This document shows, piece after piece, positions 1 to 10,255 of a DNA stretch of 43,259 bases (positions within the stretch are counted from its first letter, which is position 1; the number at the start of each line of letters is the position of its first letter). Position numbers and translations under genes: made by a program. The notes beneath the pieces were generated by a model. That model made no database searches, was not told the DNA's origin, and saw only the letters and a list, made by a program, of their open reading frames with translations. Source of the DNA: Aquificaceae bacterium (GTDB taxonomy: Bacteria > Aquificota > Aquificia > Aquificales > Aquificaceae); contig JALWEG010000024.1 of the NCBI GenBank assembly GCA_027014155.1, positions 1-43,259 of the forward strand, in the 5' to 3' direction.

Positions 1-2
1 CC

Positions 3-467
3 GCCCAGAACGAGCTGTTTGTGGGATACATGATACTGGACGCCCTCAGATTCAAACCGCCCTTGGGATTTTTCAGAAACTTCCTGCTGGAAAAGGAGGG
101 GGAGCACAGGGGGGAGCTTGACATAACGAAGGGGGGGATATTTCCCATAACTCAGGGAGTAAGAGCCTTAGCCCTCAAAGGCCAGGTAGAGGAAACGGGA
201 ACTCTGACGAGGATAGAAAAACTTACCGAAAAGGCACTACTGCCACCGGACATATCCCAAAACCTCAAAGAAGCCTTTGAGTTCCTGCAGCAGGTAAGAC
301 TCAAAAGCCAGGTCAAGAAGCTCCGCGAAGGCAAGAGACCGGACAACTACGTAAACCCGGAGGAGATGAGCAAGTTAGAGAGAGACCTCCTAAAAGACTC
401 CTTCAAAATAGTTGAGGAGTTCCAGGCATTCCTTGACAGAAGATACGCCACATACATACCCAGATGA
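3..467 (+). CDS. DUF294-type nucleotidyltransferase/CBS-family protein, C-terminal fragment
   Basis: The reading frame is open from the window edge, so only the last ~154 residues are present and the start lies outside. The fragment is mostly helical and contains a run like GELDITKGGIFPITQGVRAL, which resembles the C-terminal substrate-binding-type domain (DUF294_C) of proteins that carry CBS and GlnD-like nucleotidyltransferase domains. The missing upstream part should show those domains if this is right. The stop overlaps the next start as ATGA, so the two are probably translated together. DUF294 proteins are often found beside a DnaQ-like exonuclease, as here. The substrate of this family is not established. 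The assignment comes from family resemblance of the C-terminal part only. Confidence 0.6.
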   Translation, partial: AQNELFVGYMILDALRFKPPLGFFRNFLLEKEGEHRGELDITKGGIFPITQGVRALALKGQVEETGTLTRIEKLTEKALLPPDISQNLKEAFEFLQQVRLKSQVKKLREGKRPDNYVNPEEMSKLERDLLKDSFKIVEEFQAFLDRRYATYIPR

Positions 468-1114
468 ACCCGTTTCTGAACATAAAGAGGAAACTTTTAT
501 TAAGAAAGTATAAGAACTCACCTGCCTTCGGCAGGTATTTTAAAGATGTTGACCTAAATACAAAGGTCAAGGATGCGGAATTCGTAGTCTTTGACACAGA
601 AACCTCCGGACTGAGCCCCAAAAGAGCGCAGCTCCTATCCATAGGAGCCATAAAGATAAAGAGCCTCTCGCTAAATCTTTCGGAGAGCCTTCACCTGTTT
701 CTCAAACCCGAAGGCGAGATAGAACCTTCATCGGTTGAGGTTCACGGCATAAGACCCGTGGAGCTGATGAGACGGGGAGAGCCTGCCAAGGACGTTCTTG
801 AGAGGTTTCTAAGCTTCATAAAAGGCACCGTTCTCGTGGGATTCTACACCAAGTTTGACGTGAGCGTGGTCAGCAGATACACCCTAAAAAACTTCGGAAT
901 CCCCCTGCTCAACTACTACTTGGACACCTTTGAGATGTACTACAGACTCCACGCAAAGAGAGCGAGCCTTGAGGAAATAGCGAAGGAGCTGGAACTGCCC
1001 TCTGCGGCACGCCACAGCGCCTTAGACGACGCCTACACCACAGCACTCCTCTTTCTGAGGCTAATCCACAACTCCAAAAACAGCCCCCTGAAGCATCTGC
1101 CCCTGAGGTTGTGA
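464..1114 (+). CDS. DnaQ-like 3'-5' exonuclease (DEDDh family)
   Basis: This 216-aa protein has the DEDDh exonuclease signature: Exo I is DTETSG with D44 and E46, Exo II has D132 in YTKFD, and Exo III has H184 followed by D189 in RHSALDD. The domain fills residues ~38-200. The first ~37 residues are basic and not part of the catalytic fold. It resembles the epsilon subunit of DNA polymerase III but could be a stand-alone nuclease for DNA or RNA ends, because no polymerase subunit lies nearby. It overlaps the preceding DUF294-type gene by four bases, a known pairing that suggests a shared but undefined role. The start is the ATG of the ATGA overlap. Confidence 0.85.
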   Translation: MNPFLNIKRKLLLRKYKNSPAFGRYFKDVDLNTKVKDAEFVVFDTETSGLSPKRAQLLSIGAIKIKSLSLNLSESLHLFLKPEGEIEPSSVEVHGIRPVELMRRGEPAKDVLERFLSFIKGTVLVGFYTKFDVSVVSRYTLKNFGIPLLNYYLDTFEMYYRLHAKRASLEEIAKELELPSAARHSALDDAYTTALLFLRLIHNSKNSPLKHLPLRL

Positions 1115-1163
1115 ATACCGAAATGGCGCACCCAAACGGATAGGAAGATGAACAATCTTTTAG

Positions 1164-1169
1164 TATAAT
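1164..1169 (+). promoter_or_regulatory. Possible -10 element upstream of the ODP-MCP pair
   Basis: A consensus TATAAT lies 30 bases before the ODP start codon, with a purine-rich ribosome binding region (AAAGGGGG) in between. I see no good -35 hexamer 16-18 bases upstream, so this is a weak promoter call based on the -10 alone. Confidence 0.3.
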
Positions 1170-1199
1170 TTTGGGTGGAAACAAAAGGGGGACAAGAAT

Positions 1200-1970
1200 A
1201 TGGAAGATACAAGGGGCAAGCTGTTATACGACGACGGTGAGCACAAGTTTATATGGCTGGGTTGGGATGAGCACGAGGAGAAGGGGCTCGTTCAAACCAA
1301 TCAGTACCTTATCATAGACAGGGGCAAGGGCGTTCTCTTGGACCCCGGCGGGGTATCCGTTTTGCCGAGGGTGATGGCCGCAGTATCAACCTACATATCC
1401 CCGGAGGATATAGAAATCCTCTTCTACACCCATCAGGACCCGGACGTTAGCTCGGGTATATCCCTCTGGGTTAAAAACACTCCCGCCAAGGCTTACATAA
1501 GCAAGCTCTGGATAAGGTTCATGCCCCACTTCGGAAGCCTGGATTTGGACAGGATAGTCCCCATAGAGGACCATGGAGGAAGCGTAAGCCTGCCTTCGGG
1601 AGCCAAGATACATTTTATCCCCGCTCACTTCTTACACTCAACGGGAAACTTCACCCTCTTTGACGAGAGGTCTGGAATCCTATTTTCCGGGGATATAGGG
1701 GCGGCGGTGTTTCCCGAAGGGGAGAGATACGTATTCGTTGAAGACTTTGATAAGCACCTGCCCTACATGGAGGGCTTCCATAAGAGATATATGGCCTCAA
1801 GGCAGGCCTGCTCCCTGTGGGTGAGCTTGGTGGAGAGGTATGAACCCAAGATGATAGCTCCCCAGCACGGCGCTATATTTAGGGGTGAGAGTGTGAAGAG
1901 GTTCCTTGAGTGGTTCAGGAACCTTGAGAGCGGAGTGGACATAATAAGGAAAATCTACGGAGTGAGTTAA
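1200..1970 (+). CDS. ODP-type di-iron metallo-beta-lactamase-fold protein, probable O2/Fe(II) sensor
   Basis: The 256-aa protein has the metallo-beta-lactamase fold in the form found in flavodiiron proteins, without the flavodoxin domain. Candidate metal ligands are H78, D80 and D82 in HQDPD, H146 in HFLHS, D165 in SGDIG and H223 in PQHG. This matches the flavodiiron spacing, except that the usual Glu is D80 and the His normally following the third ligand is V83. A stand-alone domain of this type (ODP) is known in Treponema denticola as an oxygen/iron sensor working with a chemoreceptor. Here the next gene, one base downstream, is a soluble chemoreceptor, which strongly suggests the same use. 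The alternative is a stand-alone oxygen- or NO-reducing enzyme, but no rubredoxin or flavodoxin partner is visible. Confidence 0.8.
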   Translation: MEDTRGKLLYDDGEHKFIWLGWDEHEEKGLVQTNQYLIIDRGKGVLLDPGGVSVLPRVMAAVSTYISPEDIEILFYTHQDPDVSSGISLWVKNTPAKAYISKLWIRFMPHFGSLDLDRIVPIEDHGGSVSLPSGAKIHFIPAHFLHSTGNFTLFDERSGILFSGDIGAAVFPEGERYVFVEDFDKHLPYMEGFHKRYMASRQACSLWVSLVERYEPKMIAPQHGAIFRGESVKRFLEWFRNLESGVDIIRKIYGVS

Positions 1971-1971
1971 T

Positions 1972-2841
1972 ATGTTTGGAAAGAGCGAACCCAAAAGGGA
2001 ATATCCTATAAATACTCGGCAAGATGAGGAAATTCTGGCTAAAGACAAAACTATAAGGCAGCTGGCCGGCAAGCTGTGGAACTTTACAAATCTGGAGAAC
2101 ATAACCCGCTTCATTTTCGGCTTTTTCAATAAAAGCTTATCTTCCTTCAGGCTGAAGGGACACAATATAAGCTCCGCGGTAGAAGAGTTCTCGCAAACGA
2201 TAGTATCTATAGATAGAAACGTTCGTTCTATAAAGGAGAACATGGACAAGGTCATACAGGAGGCCAGAGAGGCGGAAGAGCAGGCGGTAGCCAACACCGA
2301 GAGGCTGCGGAATGCAGAAAGCTGTATGAGCGGCTTTATCATGAAGGCGGAAAGGGTAAACGAGTCCTTCGGGAAGATAAGGCGCTCAATAAGGGAGATA
2401 AACGAGATAGTTGACCAGACCACCATGCTGGCGCTGAACGCTTCAATAGAGGCGGCAAGGGTGGGCGAAGCCGGGAGGGGATTCGCCGTGGTCGCAGACG
2501 AGGTTAGAAAGCTGGCAGCAAAGACGGAGAACTTTGCCGGCTACATATCCGAGAGCGTGATTGAAGCAGAAAAGAGCATCAAGGAGTTCTCAGACGAGAT
2601 GAAGAACGTTTGCCAGAACATGCAGAGAACCATAGAGGACATAAACAAGATAGTGGAGTTTACCCAAACCAACAGGGCGGCCGCACAGCAGGTAGGAGAG
2701 CTTCTGAGTGAGGTCGTAAACTCCCTGAGGGAACAATCGGTAGCCGCACAGGAGATATCTAAGAACCTCTCGGAGTTCGTAAAGGAGATAGACACCTTGG
2801 AGAAACAGCTCAAGATTCTTTTAAGGTTTACCGAGAACTGA
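1972..2841 (+). CDS. Soluble methyl-accepting chemotaxis protein (partner of ODP)
   Basis: This 289-aa protein has no transmembrane segment and is almost entirely coiled coil. The conserved receptor hairpin tip, which binds CheA and CheW, lies at about residues 145-181 (IVDQTTMLALNASIEAA through DEVRKLA). The first ~60 residues have no recognised sensor domain, so the input probably comes from another protein. The gene starts one base after the stop of the ODP gene, so the two should be co-translated and act together as a cytoplasmic oxygen or redox taxis receptor. Its end overlaps the end of ileS on the other strand by 14 bases. No C-terminal CheR-docking pentapeptide is present. Confidence 0.88.
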   Translation: MFGKSEPKREYPINTRQDEEILAKDKTIRQLAGKLWNFTNLENITRFIFGFFNKSLSSFRLKGHNISSAVEEFSQTIVSIDRNVRSIKENMDKVIQEAREAEEQAVANTERLRNAESCMSGFIMKAERVNESFGKIRRSIREINEIVDQTTMLALNASIEAARVGEAGRGFAVVADEVRKLAAKTENFAGYISESVIEAEKSIKEFSDEMKNVCQNMQRTIEDINKIVEFTQTNRAAAQQVGELLSEVVNSLREQSVAAQEISKNLSEFVKEIDTLEKQLKILLRFTEN

Positions 2842-5626
2842 GCACCTGTGCACACCTTGAGCACACATCTCCCGAGAACTCCTCCTCCCTGAAGAAAATC
2901 CAGCACCTGGGACACTTCTTACCCTCGGCGTGGGATACCCCAACCCTAAGTCCCTTAAGCTCTTCAGAGTCGTAGAGCTCATCTCCGCCGCTTCCGAGTT
3001 CCACCTGACTGACCGTAAGGAAATAGTTCAGGTAATCCTTATACTTTTCCACCACAGGCTCAAAGCCGGCTATGTAAACCTTTGCCTGATAGGGGTGCTT
3101 AACCACTCCATTAGCCTTTGCTATCTCCAAGGCCACCATGACCTCGTCCCTAAGCCTCACAAGGTAGCCGTAATCCTTCTCCAATTCCTCGTCCGTTAGA
3201 CTTTCATTCGGAGAGGGTATCTCGCTCAAAAATACGGAGTCCGGCAGTGAGCCGTCTATCTTAACCAAATGCTGCCACACCTCCTCCGCCGTGAAGCTCA
3301 GGTAGGGTGCCACGGCAGTGACTAAAGAGGTGGCAAGTATGTACAGGGCCGTCTGCGCAGAGCGCCTTTCCCAAGACTTGGGTGCGTAAACGTATAGCCT
3401 GTCCTTTAGAACGTCCAGATAGAGAGCGGACAGCTCCGTTATGCAGAAGTTCCTAACCTCCTGATTTACCCTGTGGAAGTGATAATCTCTGTAGTGTTTA
3501 TGAATCTGTTCCAAAACCCTCTGGAGGCGTGAGAGAATCCACCTATCAAAGTGGTGCATATCCTTGAACTCAACCCGGTCCTCCGACGGCTTAAAGTCGT
3601 AAAGGTTCCCCAAGAAGTACCTGAAGGTGTTCCTTATCTTCTTGTAGTCCTCCACCACCCTTCTGAGAATCCCCTCACCCAGCTTGATGTCTTCGGTGTA
3701 ATCTTCCGATACCACCCAGAGCCTTACTATGTCAGCGCCGAACCGGTTAACCACCTCTTGGGGCGCAACCACGTTGCCCACAGACTTGGACATCTTCCGC
3801 CCCTTCTCGTCAACGGTAAAGCCGTGGGTCAGAACCTCTCTGTAAGGTGCGTATCCGTAAGAGCTCACGGACTCAAGCAGGGAGGACTGGAACCAACCCC
3901 TGTGCTGGTCTGAACCCTCAAGGTACATATCGGCTCTATCGTAGCCCAGGGGTCTTATCACGCAGGCGTGGGAGACACCCGAATCAAACCACACGTCAAG
4001 TATGTCCTCTTCCTTCTCAAACTCTCTTCCGCCGCACTTAGGACAGGCCACACCTTCGGGCAGAAGCTCCTCGGCGGATTTCTCAAACCAAAGATCCGCA
4101 CCGAAGGGGTTCTCCTCTATGAGCTTTGCCACGTGCTCAAATATCGCTTCATCTGAGACTACGCTCTGGCAGTTTTTGCAGTAAAAGACCGCTATGGGAA
4201 CACCCCAATACCTCTGCCTGGAAATGCACCAATCGGGTCGGTTCTCCACCATGCTGCGTATCCTGTTCTTGCCGTAAGAGGGTATCCACTTAACTCCATC
4301 TATCTCCTTGAGGGACTTTTCCCTCAGAGTTTCGGAGTTGACCTTCCTCTCCATTCCTATAAACCACTGGGTGGTAGCCCTGAATATAACGGGATTCTTA
4401 CACCTCCAGCAGTGGGGATAAGAGTGAGTTATAGTGTCCTCGTGAAGGAGGAAGCCTCCCTCTTTGAGCTTCTCAATTATCTTGCCGTTGGCCTCAAACA
4501 CCCTAAGGCCTATCAGAAAGTCCGGCGCTGGCTCTACGAACCTCCCTCCGTCGTCCAGCGGAGAGTAGGGCTCTATACCGAACCTCTTGCCTACGGTGTA
4601 GTCCTCCTGTCCGTGTCCGGGTGCCATGTGAACCAGGCCGGTTCCGGACTCCAGCTCAACGAACTCCGATGGGTAAACCTTCCATATCCTTTCAAGGGTG
4701 TCGCCTTCCAGATGGCCTCTGAGCCTCTCTTTATCAACGAAGGGGTGGGAGTACTCAAGTCCCAAAAGCTCCTTTCCCTTAACCACCTTAACGACCTCTC
4801 CCTCCAAACCGGTCTCACGCTTGAAGCTACCGAGGAGCTTTTCGGCAACGACCAGAGTTCCCTCCGGGGTTTTAAAGAAGGCGTAATCGTAATCCTCCCC
4901 CACCATTATCCCTAAGTTGGCGGGCAGAGTCCAGGGGGTCGTGGTCCATATAACCAGGTAGGTATCTTCCGAATCCACCAAAGGAAACTTAACGTATATG
5001 CTCGGGTCTTGCCTTTGGGCGTACTCCACCTCGGCCTCGGCTTCGGCGGTTCTGTCGTAAATACACCAGTAAACGGGCTTTTTACTCCTGAAGGCGAGGC
5101 CTCTGCTGAATACCCTCCCCAGCTCTCTAACCTCGGTAGCCTGATAGGAAGGGTTCATGGTAAGGTAAGGGTTCTCCCAATCCCCTAAGACACCTAACCT
5201 GATAAACTCCTCCTTTTGAATGCCTACGAACCTCTCTGCGTACTGTCTGCACATTCTTCTGAATTCCACCTTGGATATGTCTTCTTTGCGGAGCTTTCTC
5301 TTACGCAGTTCCTTCTCTACTTTTCTCTCTATCGGAAGTCCGTGGCAGTCCCAACCGGGTATGTAGAGAATCTTTTTACCGGTCAGGAGGTTGTACTTGT
5401 TTATTATGTCTTTCAAAATCTTATTTAGGGCGTGTCCTATGTGTATGTTGCCGTTTGCGTACGGAGGACCGTCGTGTAGGATAAACGCCTCCTTACCATC
5501 TTTTTCCTTAAGCACCCTTTTATATAAATCTTTCCACTTTTTCAAGATGTCCAACTCCCTGCTGGGAAGGTTGGCTTTCATAGGAAAGTCCGTTTTGGGC
5601 AGATTGAGGGTTTCTTTGTAGTCCAT
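2828..5626 (-). CDS. ileS: Isoleucyl-tRNA synthetase
   Basis: This class Ia aminoacyl-tRNA synthetase charges tRNA-Ile. It has 932 aa from the chosen start, close to the ~940 aa of bacterial IleRS. The HIGH motif is at residues 62-65, KMSKS lies around residue 600 (GRKMSKSVGN), and the C-terminal zinc finger has two Cys pairs (CPRC and CSRC). The open frame extends 20 codons further upstream, but the start at 5626 fits the family N-terminus (MDYKETLNLPKTDFPMK) and has GGAGG about eight bases before it. It shares a divergent intergenic region with hup, and its 3' end overlaps the chemoreceptor gene. Confidence 0.97.
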   Translation of the reverse strand: MDYKETLNLPKTDFPMKANLPSRELDILKKWKDLYKRVLKEKDGKEAFILHDGPPYANGNIHIGHALNKILKDIINKYNLLTGKKILYIPGWDCHGLPIERKVEKELRKRKLRKEDISKVEFRRMCRQYAERFVGIQKEEFIRLGVLGDWENPYLTMNPSYQATEVRELGRVFSRGLAFRSKKPVYWCIYDRTAEAEAEVEYAQRQDPSIYVKFPLVDSEDTYLVIWTTTPWTLPANLGIMVGEDYDYAFFKTPEGTLVVAEKLLGSFKRETGLEGEVVKVVKGKELLGLEYSHPFVDKERLRGHLEGDTLERIWKVYPSEFVELESGTGLVHMAPGHGQEDYTVGKRFGIEPYSPLDDGGRFVEPAPDFLIGLRVFEANGKIIEKLKEGGFLLHEDTITHSYPHCWRCKNPVIFRATTQWFIGMERKVNSETLREKSLKEIDGVKWIPSYGKNRIRSMVENRPDWCISRQRYWGVPIAVFYCKNCQSVVSDEAIFEHVAKLIEENPFGADLWFEKSAEELLPEGVACPKCGGREFEKEEDILDVWFDSGVSHACVIRPLGYDRADMYLEGSDQHRGWFQSSLLESVSSYGYAPYREVLTHGFTVDEKGRKMSKSVGNVVAPQEVVNRFGADIVRLWVVSEDYTEDIKLGEGILRRVVEDYKKIRNTFRYFLGNLYDFKPSEDRVEFKDMHHFDRWILSRLQRVLEQIHKHYRDYHFHRVNQEVRNFCITELSALYLDVLKDRLYVYAPKSWERRSAQTALYILATSLVTAVAPYLSFTAEEVWQHLVKIDGSLPDSVFLSEIPSPNESLTDEELEKDYGYLVRLRDEVMVALEIAKANGVVKHPYQAKVYIAGFEPVVEKYKDYLNYFLTVSQVELGSGGDELYDSEELKGLRVGVSHAEGKKCPRCWIFFREEEFSGDVCSRCAQVLSSR

Positions 5627-5659
5627 CAACGCTTCCTCCGTATTAGATTCCGTAGAAAA

Positions 5660-5686
5660 ATTATAAGTTAAAGAAAGGGCTTGCAA
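5660..5686 (-). promoter_or_regulatory. Candidate ileS promoter, divergent, sharing a -35 with hup
   Basis: On the minus strand TTGCAA (5681-5686) is followed after 15 bases by TATAAT (+ coordinates 5660-5665). The spacer is shorter than the preferred 17. TTGCAA is its own reverse complement, so the same hexamer also serves as a -35 for the hup promoter on the plus strand. Confidence 0.45.
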
Positions 5687-5709
5687 AGCTTATAAAAATT
5701 ATGTATTAT
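5681..5709 (+). promoter_or_regulatory. Sigma-70 type promoter of hup
   Basis: TTGCAA at 5681-5686 and TATTAT at 5704-5709 are separated by exactly 17 bases, with an A+T-rich spacer. Transcription would start near 5716, leaving a short leader with GGAGG at 5731-5735 before the ATG at 5744. Confidence 0.65.
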
Positions 5710-5743
5710 CAATTATCAGTTAAACTTTTTGGAGGGGTTAACC

Positions 5744-6016
5744 ATGACTAAAGCAGAGCTTGTTTCAGCTATTGCGCAAGCCGCAGACATTTCCAAGAAG
5801 GAGGCAGACGCTGCCCTTAAGGCGGCAGTTCAGGCTGTCTCTGAGGCGCTGCAGAGGGGCGAAAGGGTGGCCATTCCGGGATTCGGAATCTTCTCCGTAA
5901 AGGAAAGGGCTCCTAGGAAGGGTAGAAACCCCAGAACGGGAGAGGTAATAAATATACCCGCAAGGAAGGTGGTCGTCTTCAAGCCCGCAAAGGACTTAAG
6001 AGAGTCCGTAAAGTAA
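5744..6016 (+). CDS. hup: HU family DNA-binding protein
   Basis: This is a 90-aa histone-like nucleoid protein of the HU/IHF family that binds and bends DNA as a dimer. The N-terminus MTKAELVSAIAQAA and the arm region GRNPRTGE are typical, as is the beta-ribbon end IPARKVVVFKPAKDLR. The open frame begins five codons earlier, but the ATG at 5744 matches the family N-terminus and has GGAGG eight bases upstream. It has its own promoter and is followed by a G+C-rich hairpin, so it is probably a strong single-gene transcript. Confidence 0.96.
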   Translation: MTKAELVSAIAQAADISKKEADAALKAAVQAVSEALQRGERVAIPGFGIFSVKERAPRKGRNPRTGEVINIPARKVVVFKPAKDLRESVK

Positions 6017-6032
6017 GCTTCCCGGCTTCCAA

Positions 6033-6057
6033 AGGAGGGGGAACCTCTCCCCCTCTT
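6033..6057 (+). terminator. Hairpin after hup (weak intrinsic terminator)
   Basis: GAGGGGG (6035-6041) pairs with CCCCCTC (6049-6055) around a 7-base loop, and flanking bases can extend the stem. Only two T residues follow before TAAAC, so termination is probably partial. The hairpin ends five bases before the rsmE start and may also affect translation of rsmE. Confidence 0.5.
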
Positions 6058-6061
6058 AAAC

Positions 6062-6760
6062 ATGCATACCTTCTTCTCCGAAGAAAGGAGAGGGGATTAC
6101 CTATTTTTAAGGGATAAAGAGCTAAAGCATCTAAAGGTAAGAAGGATAGAGCAAAAGGAAAAGTTCAAGGTAATTTACGAAGACAGAACTTTCCTGTGCG
6201 AGCTGGAAAGGCTACACAAAGATAAGGCTCAATGCAGAATACTTGAAGAGCTTCCTCAGGAGAGTTTTCAGGTTAATATAACCCTGTATCAGGCAGTTCC
6301 GGAAAACCTAAAGACCTTTGAGGAGATAATCAGGGGCTCGGTTCAGGTGGGTGTAAAGCGTATAGTACCCGTTATATCGGACAGGAGCTTCAAGAAGAGG
6401 GAGGTCTTAGAGAGGAAACTTCAAAGGTGGGAAAAGATAGCAAAGGAGGAGATGAAGCTGTCTGGAAGGAGCCTACCCTTCAGAATTGAGAAGGTGGAAA
6501 GTCTGAGGGTCTTAAAGGCGGAGGCTCAGGTTAATCTGCTCCTTGATAACTTCAACGGCAAAGGGTCTATAAGAGACCTGAACTTTAAGGCTCAAAGCTA
6601 CTCCGTGGTGGTGGGCCCCGAGGGGGGTTTTACAGCTAAGGAGGTCTCTTCTCTCAGGGAAAGGGGGTTTGAGCCGGTTCTGCTACGACCTTACGTTATG
6701 AGAACCCAAACTGCGGCACTCCTGATGTGCGGTATGATAGCCAACCTGAGCGCTACTTGA
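6062..6760 (+). CDS. rsmE: 16S rRNA m3U1498 methyltransferase RsmE
   Basis: This 232-aa SPOUT-family enzyme methylates N3 of U1498 in 16S rRNA, using S-adenosylmethionine. The knotted SAM site is visible as VVGPEGGFTAKE and, near the C-terminus, LRPYVMRTQTAALL, which corresponds to the family motif L-x-P-x-(I/V)-(L/M)-R-(T)-x-TA. The N-terminal ~70 residues form the PUA-like RNA-binding domain. No clear Shine-Dalgarno sequence precedes the ATG, because a terminator-like hairpin occupies that place. Its last eight bases overlap the end of the convergent response-regulator gene. Confidence 0.93.
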   Translation: MHTFFSEERRGDYLFLRDKELKHLKVRRIEQKEKFKVIYEDRTFLCELERLHKDKAQCRILEELPQESFQVNITLYQAVPENLKTFEEIIRGSVQVGVKRIVPVISDRSFKKREVLERKLQRWEKIAKEEMKLSGRSLPFRIEKVESLRVLKAEAQVNLLLDNFNGKGSIRDLNFKAQSYSVVVGPEGGFTAKEVSSLRERGFEPVLLRPYVMRTQTAALLMCGMIANLSAT

Positions 6761-8087
6761 GCCTAATTCCGAACTCCCTTATCTTCCTATAAAGGCTTGA
6801 TACGTCTATTCCTATATCCTGAGCCGTCTTTTTAACATCGTAGCCGTGAATCTTGAGCCTGTTTTCAATAAACTTGCGTTCAAATTCCCTCTTTGCGCTC
6901 TTTAGCTCCTTTATCCCAAATAGATACTCAATGCTCTGAGCACTTCTGTAGGAGTCCATCTCGCAGACGTCTATATTTATCTCTCCGCTCTCCGAGAGTA
7001 TAACCAACCTCTCCATGAGGTTCTTAAGCTCTCTAACGTTTCCACGCCACTCGTGGTTCATAAGTATCTCTTTGGCCTCCTCTGAAAGGTGGAGCTTAGG
7101 CTTCTTGTACTCCTTTGAAAACCTATCAAGAAAGTATTCGGCCAAAGGTACTATGTCCTCCCTTCTCTCCCTTAAAGGCGGTATCTCTATGGTGAACACG
7201 GAAATCCTGTAAAAGAGGTCCTCTCTGAACCTGCCTTCCTCAACCTCCCTTCTTATATCCCTGTTTGATGCAGACAGGATTCTCACATCCACCTCTATCT
7301 TTTGGGTTCCTCCCAAACGGGTAAAGCTGCCGGTCTCAAGAACTCTCAAAAGCTTGGCCTGGGAAGATGTGCTCATCTCTCCTATCTCGTCTAAGAAAAG
7401 GGTGCCTCCGTCCGCAAGCTCAAACTTTCCCTTCTTCCTGGACACGGCTCCGGTAAACGCTCCCTTTTCGTATCCGAACAGCTCCATCTCCACCAGGTTT
7501 TCCGGTAAAGACGCACAGTTAACGTCAACGAACTGACCCTTTCTCTCGGATAGCCTGTGGATTATACGTGCAACCAACTCCTTGCCGGTTCCGCTTTCGC
7601 CCAAAATCAGGACGGGAGCCTTGCTCTTTGCCACCTTGTTTATCAGTTCCTTAACCCTAAGTATCGCTTCAGAAACCCCTACAAGCTCTAAATCCTCCTG
7701 TCCGAAGCTCGTTATGCGGCTCTCAGCCTCCTTAAAGGCGTGTTCCACTGACAGGAGCAGCTTCTCAGAAGAGAAGGGCTTTTCTAAAAAGTCGTAAGCT
7801 CCCAACTTTATAGCTCTAACGGCACTCTCTATGTTTCCGTGTCCCGTCATAACTATCACCACCGAATCGGGCGACTCTTTCTTTATACGGGATATAAACT
7901 CTATACCGTCCCCGTCGGGCATCCAAACGTCAAGAAGTATTACCGGATAAAGCTCCTTACTTATAGCTTCCCGAGCACAGGAAAGTGTGGGACATTCGTA
8001 CACACCGTAGCCCTCATCTTCCAACATGCCCCTCAGCAAGAACCTTATGTTCTCCTCGTCGTCAACCACCAGCACCTTCTTTTTCAT
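6753..8087 (-). CDS. Sigma-54-dependent response regulator, NtrX/NtrC type
   Basis: The 444-aa protein has three parts: a receiver domain with phosphoacceptor D53 and K102, an AAA+ domain with Walker A GESGTGKE (163-170), GAFTGA (209-214) and Walker B around 227-234, and a C-terminal Fis-type helix-turn-helix. GAFTGA is the contact to sigma-54, so it activates RpoN-dependent promoters. The C-terminal segment is closest in character to NtrX. No kinase is adjacent, but an NtrY-type kinase lies at 40603-42372 in the same window and is the obvious candidate partner. The gene starts close to the restriction-modification block. Its targets cannot be told from here. Confidence 0.9.
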   Translation of the reverse strand: MKKKVLVVDDEENIRFLLRGMLEDEGYGVYECPTLSCAREAISKELYPVILLDVWMPDGDGIEFISRIKKESPDSVVIVMTGHGNIESAVRAIKLGAYDFLEKPFSSEKLLLSVEHAFKEAESRITSFGQEDLELVGVSEAILRVKELINKVAKSKAPVLILGESGTGKELVARIIHRLSERKGQFVDVNCASLPENLVEMELFGYEKGAFTGAVSRKKGKFELADGGTLFLDEIGEMSTSSQAKLLRVLETGSFTRLGGTQKIEVDVRILSASNRDIRREVEEGRFREDLFYRISVFTIEIPPLRERREDIVPLAEYFLDRFSKEYKKPKLHLSEEAKEILMNHEWRGNVRELKNLMERLVILSESGEINIDVCEMDSYRSAQSIEYLFGIKELKSAKREFERKFIENRLKIHGYDVKKTAQDIGIDVSSLYRKIREFGIRLK

Positions 8088-8118
8088 CTTACATAGCTCC
8101 GACTGCAGACCATAGTAT

Positions 8119-8898
8119 TCACCAAAGTAAAATCTCGTCGTAGGTTATCTTAGCTCCTTCTCCGAGGGAGTTTATCTTTTCGAGCACTATATCGTGTATA
8201 TGTTTCAAGTAATCTTCTTTAAAGATTACAAAACCGTTATCGAGCTTCGAAAAATTTGCATTAAAGACCTTTAAGGTGCTCCTATATTTAGCCTTCGTGT
8301 GTTCCTTCACCCTCGGATTCTTTAGCTTACCCTCCAATTCTGTTGTATTCACAACCAAATAAGGCACTTCAACTACTACATCTACATACTTTCGCTGTCT
8401 TTTTGTAAATCTTCTGCTGGAGGCTTCCCTTCTGTAGGATACCTTCTTTATCTGAATGCCTACCTTTATACCGCCGAGTTCCAAGATAGCGTCTATACCC
8501 ATCGCATCCAGTTCTGCATAGGAAACGAGCTTTTCCACAAACAAGGAGTTCCAAAGATACTGAAAGTGAAACTGGGTAAGCACAGACATCCATATCCTAT
8601 ACAACCTCGCTTTGAAACCCTCCTCTACAAACTGAAGCGAACAACCGTAGAAGAACTTCTTTATGAATTTATATATATGCGGATTCAGCTTTTGGGACCA
8701 GTATATTTCAAAAATTTCATCGTAATCTCTAAAGTCTGTGGTATTCCAATAGTAGTGGTAAAACAGCTCTAAGGGTAGAAGCTCTTTAGGCAAATCTTGC
8801 TCTACGGTCTTTATGCGTTTTAATTGTGAATACTTCTGTATATCTATCTCAGCAAGGAACTTTTCAAACTTGCCAAGGTCTTCACTCCAATTTCTCAT
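8119..8898 (-). CDS. TaqI-like type II restriction endonuclease (predicted site TCGA)
   Basis: This 259-aa protein resembles the TaqI/TthHB8I endonuclease family (about 263 aa), with an N-terminal run FEKFLAEID...IKTVEQDLPKEL that fits my memory of TaqI. The likely PD-(D/E)xK-type core is ELDAMGIDAILELGG followed by IQIKK, giving D131, D136, Q149 and K151 as candidate catalytic residues. The two Asp five residues apart recall the essential D137/D142 pair of TaqI. It overlaps the upstream methyltransferase gene by 17 bases and is probably translated from the same transcript. The gene is A+T-rich compared with its neighbours and contains three TCGA sites, which points to acquisition from elsewhere. 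Confidence 0.82.
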   Translation of the reverse strand: MRNWSEDLGKFEKFLAEIDIQKYSQLKRIKTVEQDLPKELLPLELFYHYYWNTTDFRDYDEIFEIYWSQKLNPHIYKFIKKFFYGCSLQFVEEGFKARLYRIWMSVLTQFHFQYLWNSLFVEKLVSYAELDAMGIDAILELGGIKVGIQIKKVSYRREASSRRFTKRQRKYVDVVVEVPYLVVNTTELEGKLKNPRVKEHTKAKYRSTLKVFNANFSKLDNGFVIFKEDYLKHIHDIVLEKINSLGEGAKITYDEILLW

Positions 8899-10255
8899 TG
8901 CGTAGGAACCTATTTAGCTCACATAACTCTTCCTTTGTAGGCAACGGAAGTATCTTAAGTTGGGTAATACTGAGGTGATACGTTATATCCTTAAACACGC
9001 TTTTTATATACCTACTTACTATTTCTGAGTTCAGAAATTCAACCACCTCTTTATCCGTCAGGTTAAATTGCATATTCGTTAGAGTGTATTCTCTCAATAA
9101 GTGATATACATCTCCCATCCAAGGGTAAGCTTTATAATCGTATGCCGCTCCTAACCGTCTGTTTCCTCTGAACCCTAAACCCACAACTATATGGGGTTTA
9201 TCAAAGAAACTCCTCAAAGAGGTCTTTTTCTTATCTTCAATCCAATAACCCGTTATAGGTTCGTAAATAACCGTTCCTATCTTTAAATTTCGGCCGTTCA
9301 GAATGGGCAACAAGCCTCTTCCTTCTGGAATGCCGTCCATCTTTATGACATCTTCGTTATTTCTTATCTCCGGCGTCCTCGGCGATATCCTGATAGTGTA
9401 AACATCTCCTAATCTGAAACCGCAAACATCTTCCACAACTTTGCTAAGCTTGTCTGAGAACAAAATTATCTCACCTAACCACCTGTCGTATTTCCTTATT
9501 AGCTTCAGTTTTCCACCGGTGTAATCGTACAACTCCGCTTTATTGGCTTCTGATTTAGCTTTGGTAAACCTTAAAATCACAGTGCTTACATCTGCTTCCG
9601 GCTTGAATACACCGCTCCCCATGTATATGATTTCGGTTCTTCCTCGCATAGAAAGGAACTTCCGGAGTTTCTTAAACTCATCTAATATCATGAAGGTGGC
9701 CGGTACTATAAATATTAACTGGCCGTTATCTTTTAAGAGCTTAACAGATTTCTCTATAAACGCCCCGTAAACGTTATATTTGCCGAACCAAGTTTCATAA
9801 AGCTGTTTGTAAATCTTCTTTGTTTCATCGTCGACCCGTATTGTGTAATGTTGAGATAGGCTGGGTATTCCGTAAGGCGGATTGCCTATTATGATATCGA
9901 AGCGCTCTGAGGTATTCCAAAGCAGGTAATCACAGTTAATTACATCTATACTTTCATATAAGCCTTGCTTGTAGACGTATTCTACTATGTCTTTATTTAT
10001 TTCTATGCCTGCTTTGGTCGTAGCTTTATCGAATATATCTCTTCTACGATTTTTAATGCCAATCAAAAACTGGCAAACTCCACAAGCGGGTTCAAGAATC
10101 TTAATGTTTCCGGTATTTAGTTTCTTTTCATCTATCAGCTCAACCATAAAGTCAACCATCCACTCAGGTGTAAAGAATATGCCTAAATCCCTCTTAATGT
10201 CCTTTATTCTTTCATACGCAGCTGCCACATGAGCTTTAATGTCCAACTCTTCCAT
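8882..10255 (-). CDS. TaqI-like N6-adenine DNA methyltransferase (predicted site TCGA)
   Basis: The 457-aa protein matches M.TaqI across its length: motif X around FFTPEWMVDFM, motif I ILEPACGVCQF (53-63), catalytic motif IV NPPYG (125-129), then GKYNVYGAFIEKSVKLL and a C-terminal TaqI-like specificity domain (ILNGRNLK, AYPWMGDVYHLL). It should methylate the adenine of TCGA and so protect host DNA from the endonuclease encoded by the next gene. The order is methyltransferase first, which favours protection before cutting. Base composition is A+T-rich, and codon use (many ATA, TTA, AAA) differs from the flanking ntrX-like and aldehyde dehydrogenase genes. It contains three TCGA sites. Confidence 0.9.
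   Translation of the reverse strand: MEELDIKAHVAAAYERIKDIKRDLGIFFTPEWMVDFMVELIDEKKLNTGNIKILEPACGVCQFLIGIKNRRRDIFDKATTKAGIEINKDIVEYVYKQGLYESIDVINCDYLLWNTSERFDIIIGNPPYGIPSLSQHYTIRVDDETKKIYKQLYETWFGKYNVYGAFIEKSVKLLKDNGQLIFIVPATFMILDEFKKLRKFLSMRGRTEIIYMGSGVFKPEADVSTVILRFTKAKSEANKAELYDYTGGKLKLIRKYDRWLGEIILFSDKLSKVVEDVCGFRLGDVYTIRISPRTPEIRNNEDVIKMDGIPEGRGLLPILNGRNLKIGTVIYEPITGYWIEDKKKTSLRSFFDKPHIVVGLGFRGNRRLGAAYDYKAYPWMGDVYHLLREYTLTNMQFNLTDKEVVEFLNSEIVSRYIKSVFKDITYHLSITQLKILPLPTKEELCELNRFLRNEKLE

Follow-up and report, generated by a model that had tools for sequence, protein, structure and literature searches.

Extreme avoidance of TCGA in an Aquificaceae genome that carries a TaqI-type restriction–modification gene pair

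The TaqI system of Thermus aquaticus is a Type IIP restriction–modification (R-M) system that recognises 5'-TCGA-3' (PMC5587805); its nuclease, the prototype of the family, cuts that word. Work on orthodox Type II systems has described avoidance of the recognition site that grows with the lifespan of the system; in the same work, avoided words without a present system are read as traces of lost systems, and compositionally atypical R-M loci go with weaker avoidance (Rusinov et al. 2015, PMC4687349). We analysed a 43,259-nucleotide stretch of DNA (the window), one of the 67 contigs of a 1.86-Mb Aquificaceae genome, in which two adjacent genes resemble the TaqI pair (Table 1).

Table 1 Features of the window
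Feature	Position	Strand	Details
TCGA-free flank	1–8118		IleRS, RsmE, sigma-54 response regulator and others
TaqI-type restriction endonuclease gene, 259 aa	8119–8898	−	PF09573 RE_TaqI, E=8e-62, above cut-off
Three TCGA sites	8180–8250 (8180, 8240, 8247)		Nuclease gene, 3' part
M.TaqI-type adenine-N6 DNA methyltransferase gene, 457 aa	8882–10255	−	Eco57I and TaqI_C domains
Three TCGA sites	9831–10032 (9831, 9897, 10029)		Methyltransferase gene, 5' part
TCGA-free flank	10256–43259		Aldehyde dehydrogenase, RsmI, ThiO, ThiC, DabA and others

We found that the window nuclease belongs to the same Pfam family as the TaqI enzyme, matching RE_TaqI (PF09573) with 209 bits against a cut-off of 26.1, and that it is also matched by PADLOC REase_II (E=7e-60). 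Its relatives in other phyla are 53–73% identical, and comparison with solved structures gave no meaningful match. The methyltransferase, with its PF07669 and PF12950 domains, can be aligned with M.TaqI over most of its length: residues 20–437 match M.TaqI chains of known structure, including 2ibs (phmmer E=1.7e-76), and the NPPY motifs of the two proteins align. As in the TaqI system, the genes are separate and adjacent; the methyltransferase gene lies upstream and overlaps the nuclease gene by 17 bases. Unlike the TaqI system, the pair sits in a host of a different phylum (Aquificota), and both genes are A+T-rich for that host. By family membership the pair is a complete TaqI-type Type II R-M system, for which recognition, methylation and cleavage of TCGA are predicted, with indirect support from the purge described below. 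A preliminary description of this DNA had called the genes TaqI-like, and the PF09573, REase_II and Eco57I/TaqI_C matches and the M.TaqI alignment bear this out.

Six TCGA sites were found in the window, all inside the two R-M genes, and none in the remaining 41,122 bases. A maximal-order Markov model predicted 74.8 sites outside 8119–10255, and synonymous-codon shuffling predicted 124.6 in the other open reading frames. The preliminary description had reported the same six positions, each exact by count, and the same absence from the other ~41 kb. Its argument that this is not the loss of a dinucleotide also holds: TCGG (170 copies), TCGT (133), TCGC (72), ACGA (173), CCGA (159) and GCGA (78) are all present in numbers. 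It was right that TCGA is purged but overlooked that two other words are purged equally. CTAG occurs 3 times against 91.6 expected (positions 5913, 16641 and 19884) and GATC 7 times against 120 (4093, 10997, 13932, 26040, 31445, 33074 and 39719), so that TCGA is one of three lost words; GTAC is reduced to an observed/expected ratio of 0.46. No tRNA genes were found in the window. Each TCGA site in the nuclease gene has three single-base synonymous escapes and each in the methyltransferase gene has one to three; protein constraint was ruled out as the cause of the six retained sites, since each of them could be removed by a single synonymous change.

We sampled the rest of the genome as ten further stretches, 163 kb in all, again with maximal-order Markov expectations; PMC4687349 used Karlin's method. 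TCGA occurred 9 times against 287 expected, GATC 28 times against 452 and CTAG 10 times against 388. The purge of TCGA beyond the window thus holds genome-wide when counted against a Markov expectation. The confinement of TCGA to the R-M genes is true of the window but not of the genome, where these nine other sites were found. Two of the nine sit in tRNA T-loops and four in spacers belonging to two CRISPR arrays; of the other three, one lies at the 3' end of a queuine tRNA-ribosyltransferase-like gene (named from its translation) and two in A+T-rich genes (read from translations). The T-loop TTCGA is kept in 8 of the 20 tRNA genes that we read. Purging of T-loops through TTCAA in place of TTCGA was considered and rejected, because the tRNA species read both here and in a congener share the same base. 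Structural RNA thus escapes the purge, and newly gained foreign DNA, as in CRISPR spacers, carries the word. The two arrays (L026 11930-12213 and L031 5489-5992) have a repeat of about GTCGCAATCCCTTTCTTTGCAGGGATAACTGCAAC with a spacing of 71–99.

The congener, G063, shares 72.7% protein identity (AAI) with this genome, and we found neither a TaqI-type nuclease nor an M.TaqI-type methylase in it. Its TCGA is near normal (an initial sample gave 118 of 140 expected, or 0.84, and 312 kb gave 0.70), and it is purged of GATC, CTAG and GGCC. Because the two congeners purge different words, the way in which sites were lost can be followed one base at a time. Across 57 ortholog pairs, 63 TCGA sites of the congener could be aligned and none is kept here; for the mirror word GGCC, 6 of 215 sites here are kept in the congener. 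Third codon positions account for 43 of the 51 single-base changes at aligned TCGA sites, and the changes comprise C to T (19), C to A (8), C to G (7), G to A (6), G to C (4), G to T (3) and a few others. Directed C-to-T loss of TCGA was ruled out, as the changes run to every base. In a codon-slot test, NTC stood before GA-codons in 0 of 407 cases here and before other G-codons in 222 of 824; in the congener it stood before GA-codons in 46 of 423. Changes to all bases, mostly at third positions, together with the codon-slot test, indicate selection on the word and not directed mutation. Compared with the congener, this genome has lost nearly all of its TCGA through ordinary substitutions, most of them synonymous.

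We then consider the class, surveyed as about 80 genomes with enough sampled sequence, most of them represented by one stretch no longer than 20 kb. The class is a mosaic in which each genome purges its own subset of CTAG, GATC, TCGA, GTAC and GGCC; CTAG is low in most genomes, and TGCA, AGCT, AATT and TTAA are purged in none. With kinship among these related genomes ignored, carriers of a TaqI-type nuclease had TCGA observed/expected ratios of 0–0.38, lower than those of non-carriers, whose median was 0.56 (p=0.004). On the same terms, carriers of an MjaI-type (CTAG) nuclease all had CTAG ratios of 0–0.07 (p=0.0009), and the association of DpnII carriage with GATC was not significant (p=0.10, kinship again ignored). 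The TaqI-type nuclease of the class is paired with two unrelated methylase types. Among non-carriers of the nuclease, 29% have TCGA below 0.15, so present carriage of the TaqI-type gene family is not required; TCGA systems of other kinds, or ones since lost, are probably widespread in the class. Of the relatives without the nuclease, the congener (0.70–0.84) speaks for a link between nuclease and purge, and the purged non-carriers count against it. Two 20-kb stretches (L042 1-20000 of G009 and L043 1-20000 of G018) contain no TCGA, and searches of both genomes turned up neither a TaqI-type nuclease nor an M.TaqI-type methylase; we read this absence as the mark of another TCGA-specific system or of a lost one. 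Separately, genome G008 carries an M.TaqI-type methylase gene, 60% identical and ended by the contig end (L196 8671-9621), has no TCGA depletion (1.41) and yielded no nuclease when its genome was searched.

We consider it likely, with a probability of roughly 0.8, that this genome is a case of extreme restriction-site avoidance produced by long selection through TCGA cutting. A TCGA-cutting system, whether the present one or earlier systems with the same specificity, would have acted over a long time; under-methylated chromosomal TCGA would occasionally have been cut, and site-free alleles would have won. The word would persist where it is hard to change, as in tRNA T-loops, or in newly gained DNA such as CRISPR spacers. 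The six sites of the R-M genes may have been kept mainly because the pair is replaced or moved faster than purging finishes. The genome-wide purge, the unpurged nuclease-less congener and the class-wide association with the nuclease all fit the long exposure of the chromosome to TCGA cutting that the preliminary description had suggested. Against the explanation by long avoidance count the purged non-carriers and also the purge of GATC and CTAG, for which we found no cognate gene here: DpnII-, MjaI- and D12-type genes were searched for in this genome and none was found.

The part of this explanation that concerns the R-M genes depends on their age. By codon shuffling, TCGA occurs in them 6 times against 6.5 expected, which agrees with the normal density claimed earlier; GATC occurs 0 times against 3.4, CTAG 0 against 3.8 and GTAC 2 against 7.4. 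The absence of GATC and CTAG, as in the host, argues against a foreign origin in the very recent past, and these losses with the partial loss of GTAC count against recency in our preferred explanation. The GC content of the R-M genes is 0.389 against 0.512. Across 17 loci, however, R-M GC tracks host GC (r=0.89) and lies consistently some 8 points below it, so A+T-richness by itself is no proof of recent arrival. In purged hosts, the three R-M loci closest to their host in GC hold no TCGA (14.8 expected) and the GC-distant loci hold 23 against 47.7, a division into near and far that was set after the data were seen and for which the rank correlation is weak (Spearman p=0.13). The proposal that the R-M genes are recent arrivals is favoured by the GC-near loci and weakened by the standing A+T-richness and the GATC and CTAG already lost. 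That they came from a donor without a history of TCGA cutting does not hold as worded, because any donor of the pair carried a TCGA-cutting enzyme; it could mean only a short stay. In an empty-site comparison, no match to the aldehyde dehydrogenase was found in the congener, and the two neighbours of the R-M pair are not adjacent in other relatives. A search of viral contigs found no mobile carrier of the pair, and the only flanking repeats at the locus were short and chance-like.

A tentative alternative, which we judge unlikely, is that selection does not act against the R-M genes' own sites, however long the pair has been resident. The purge would strike TCGA left unmethylated after loss of the system or on uptake from cells that lack it; DNA bearing the R-M genes would always come from a methylating cell, and so its own sites would be spared. 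The contrast within these genes between retained TCGA and host-like GATC, CTAG and GTAC favours this alternative, as do the synonymous escapes open to all six sites. The R-M genes of G005, in which an unrelated PF01555 methylase accompanies the TaqI-type nuclease, show a similar contrast (TCGA 4 of 4.6 expected, GATC 0 of 5.1, CTAG 0 of 3.8, GTAC 1 of 5.9). With purged hosts pooled, R-M genes held 18 of 48.5 expected own sites and the same genes held 6 of 54.5 for other purged words (p=0.007). DpnII-type methylase genes of G118, G119, G122 and G039 likewise keep GATC in hosts at 0.3–0.57. However, TCGA is absent from the R-M genes of L018, L016, L193 and L191 (8.0, 4.1, 2.8 and 2.6 expected), and the DpnII loci of G002 and G104 lack GATC; such own-site-free loci in purged hosts rule out a strict exemption as a universal rule. 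Moreover, purging of CTAG and GATC is so common in the class that genes received from a donor within it would show this pattern too. In two DpnII-type methylase genes (L212 563-1447 and L213 600-1447) we also observed GATC clusters of six or seven per 0.9 kb, with none or one GATC in the neighbouring nuclease gene. The general form of the idea, that R-M genes are an exempt zone and hosts purge a word except in genes that travel with the protecting methylase, seems doubtful to us; if true, genomes would avoid the word because systems are lost or unmethylated DNA is taken up, and leaky methylation within carrier cells would not be the cause. Between a residence too short for purging and exemption by a linked methylase, we slightly favour the former.

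Mutational or repair bias is often proposed for the loss of CTAG, and a bias independent of restriction might likewise have removed TCGA. The equally low CTAG and GATC of this genome, the low CTAG of most class genomes and the many nuclease-less genomes that are TCGA-poor are consistent with it. We nevertheless consider it improbable: TCGA is near normal in the congener, replacements are spread over all bases with no single directed change, carriers differ from non-carriers in TCGA, and the R-M genes are unaffected though replicated by the same machinery. Regulation of the R-M genes through methylation of the six sites would account for their restriction to these two genes but is very improbable, as the sites lie within open reading frames and the 59-base gap upstream of the methylase gene contains no TCGA, their number (6 against 6.5) shows no excess over shuffling, and relatives carry 0–5 sites at different positions.

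The cause of restriction-site avoidance in genomes is still debated. The two congeners provide a clean natural experiment, with TCGA purged here and GGCC in the other within one genus at 72.7% protein identity, and setting a system's own site against the other purged words within R-M genes is a way to test why restriction sites are avoided. Among titles and abstracts, with incomplete coverage of the literature, we found none that dealt with a system's own sites within R-M genes. This genome is a genuine and very strong case of a phenomenon already described, and it raises one side question that can be tested. As in Rusinov et al. 2015 (PMC4687349), the word of a resident Type II system is under-represented genome-wide, and other words are avoided for which no present system was found. 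It differs from that study in three respects: the loss of TCGA is near total (0.03, against a threshold of 0.78), it accompanies an atypical R-M locus whereas atypical loci in that study avoid less, and the R-M genes themselves keep TCGA.
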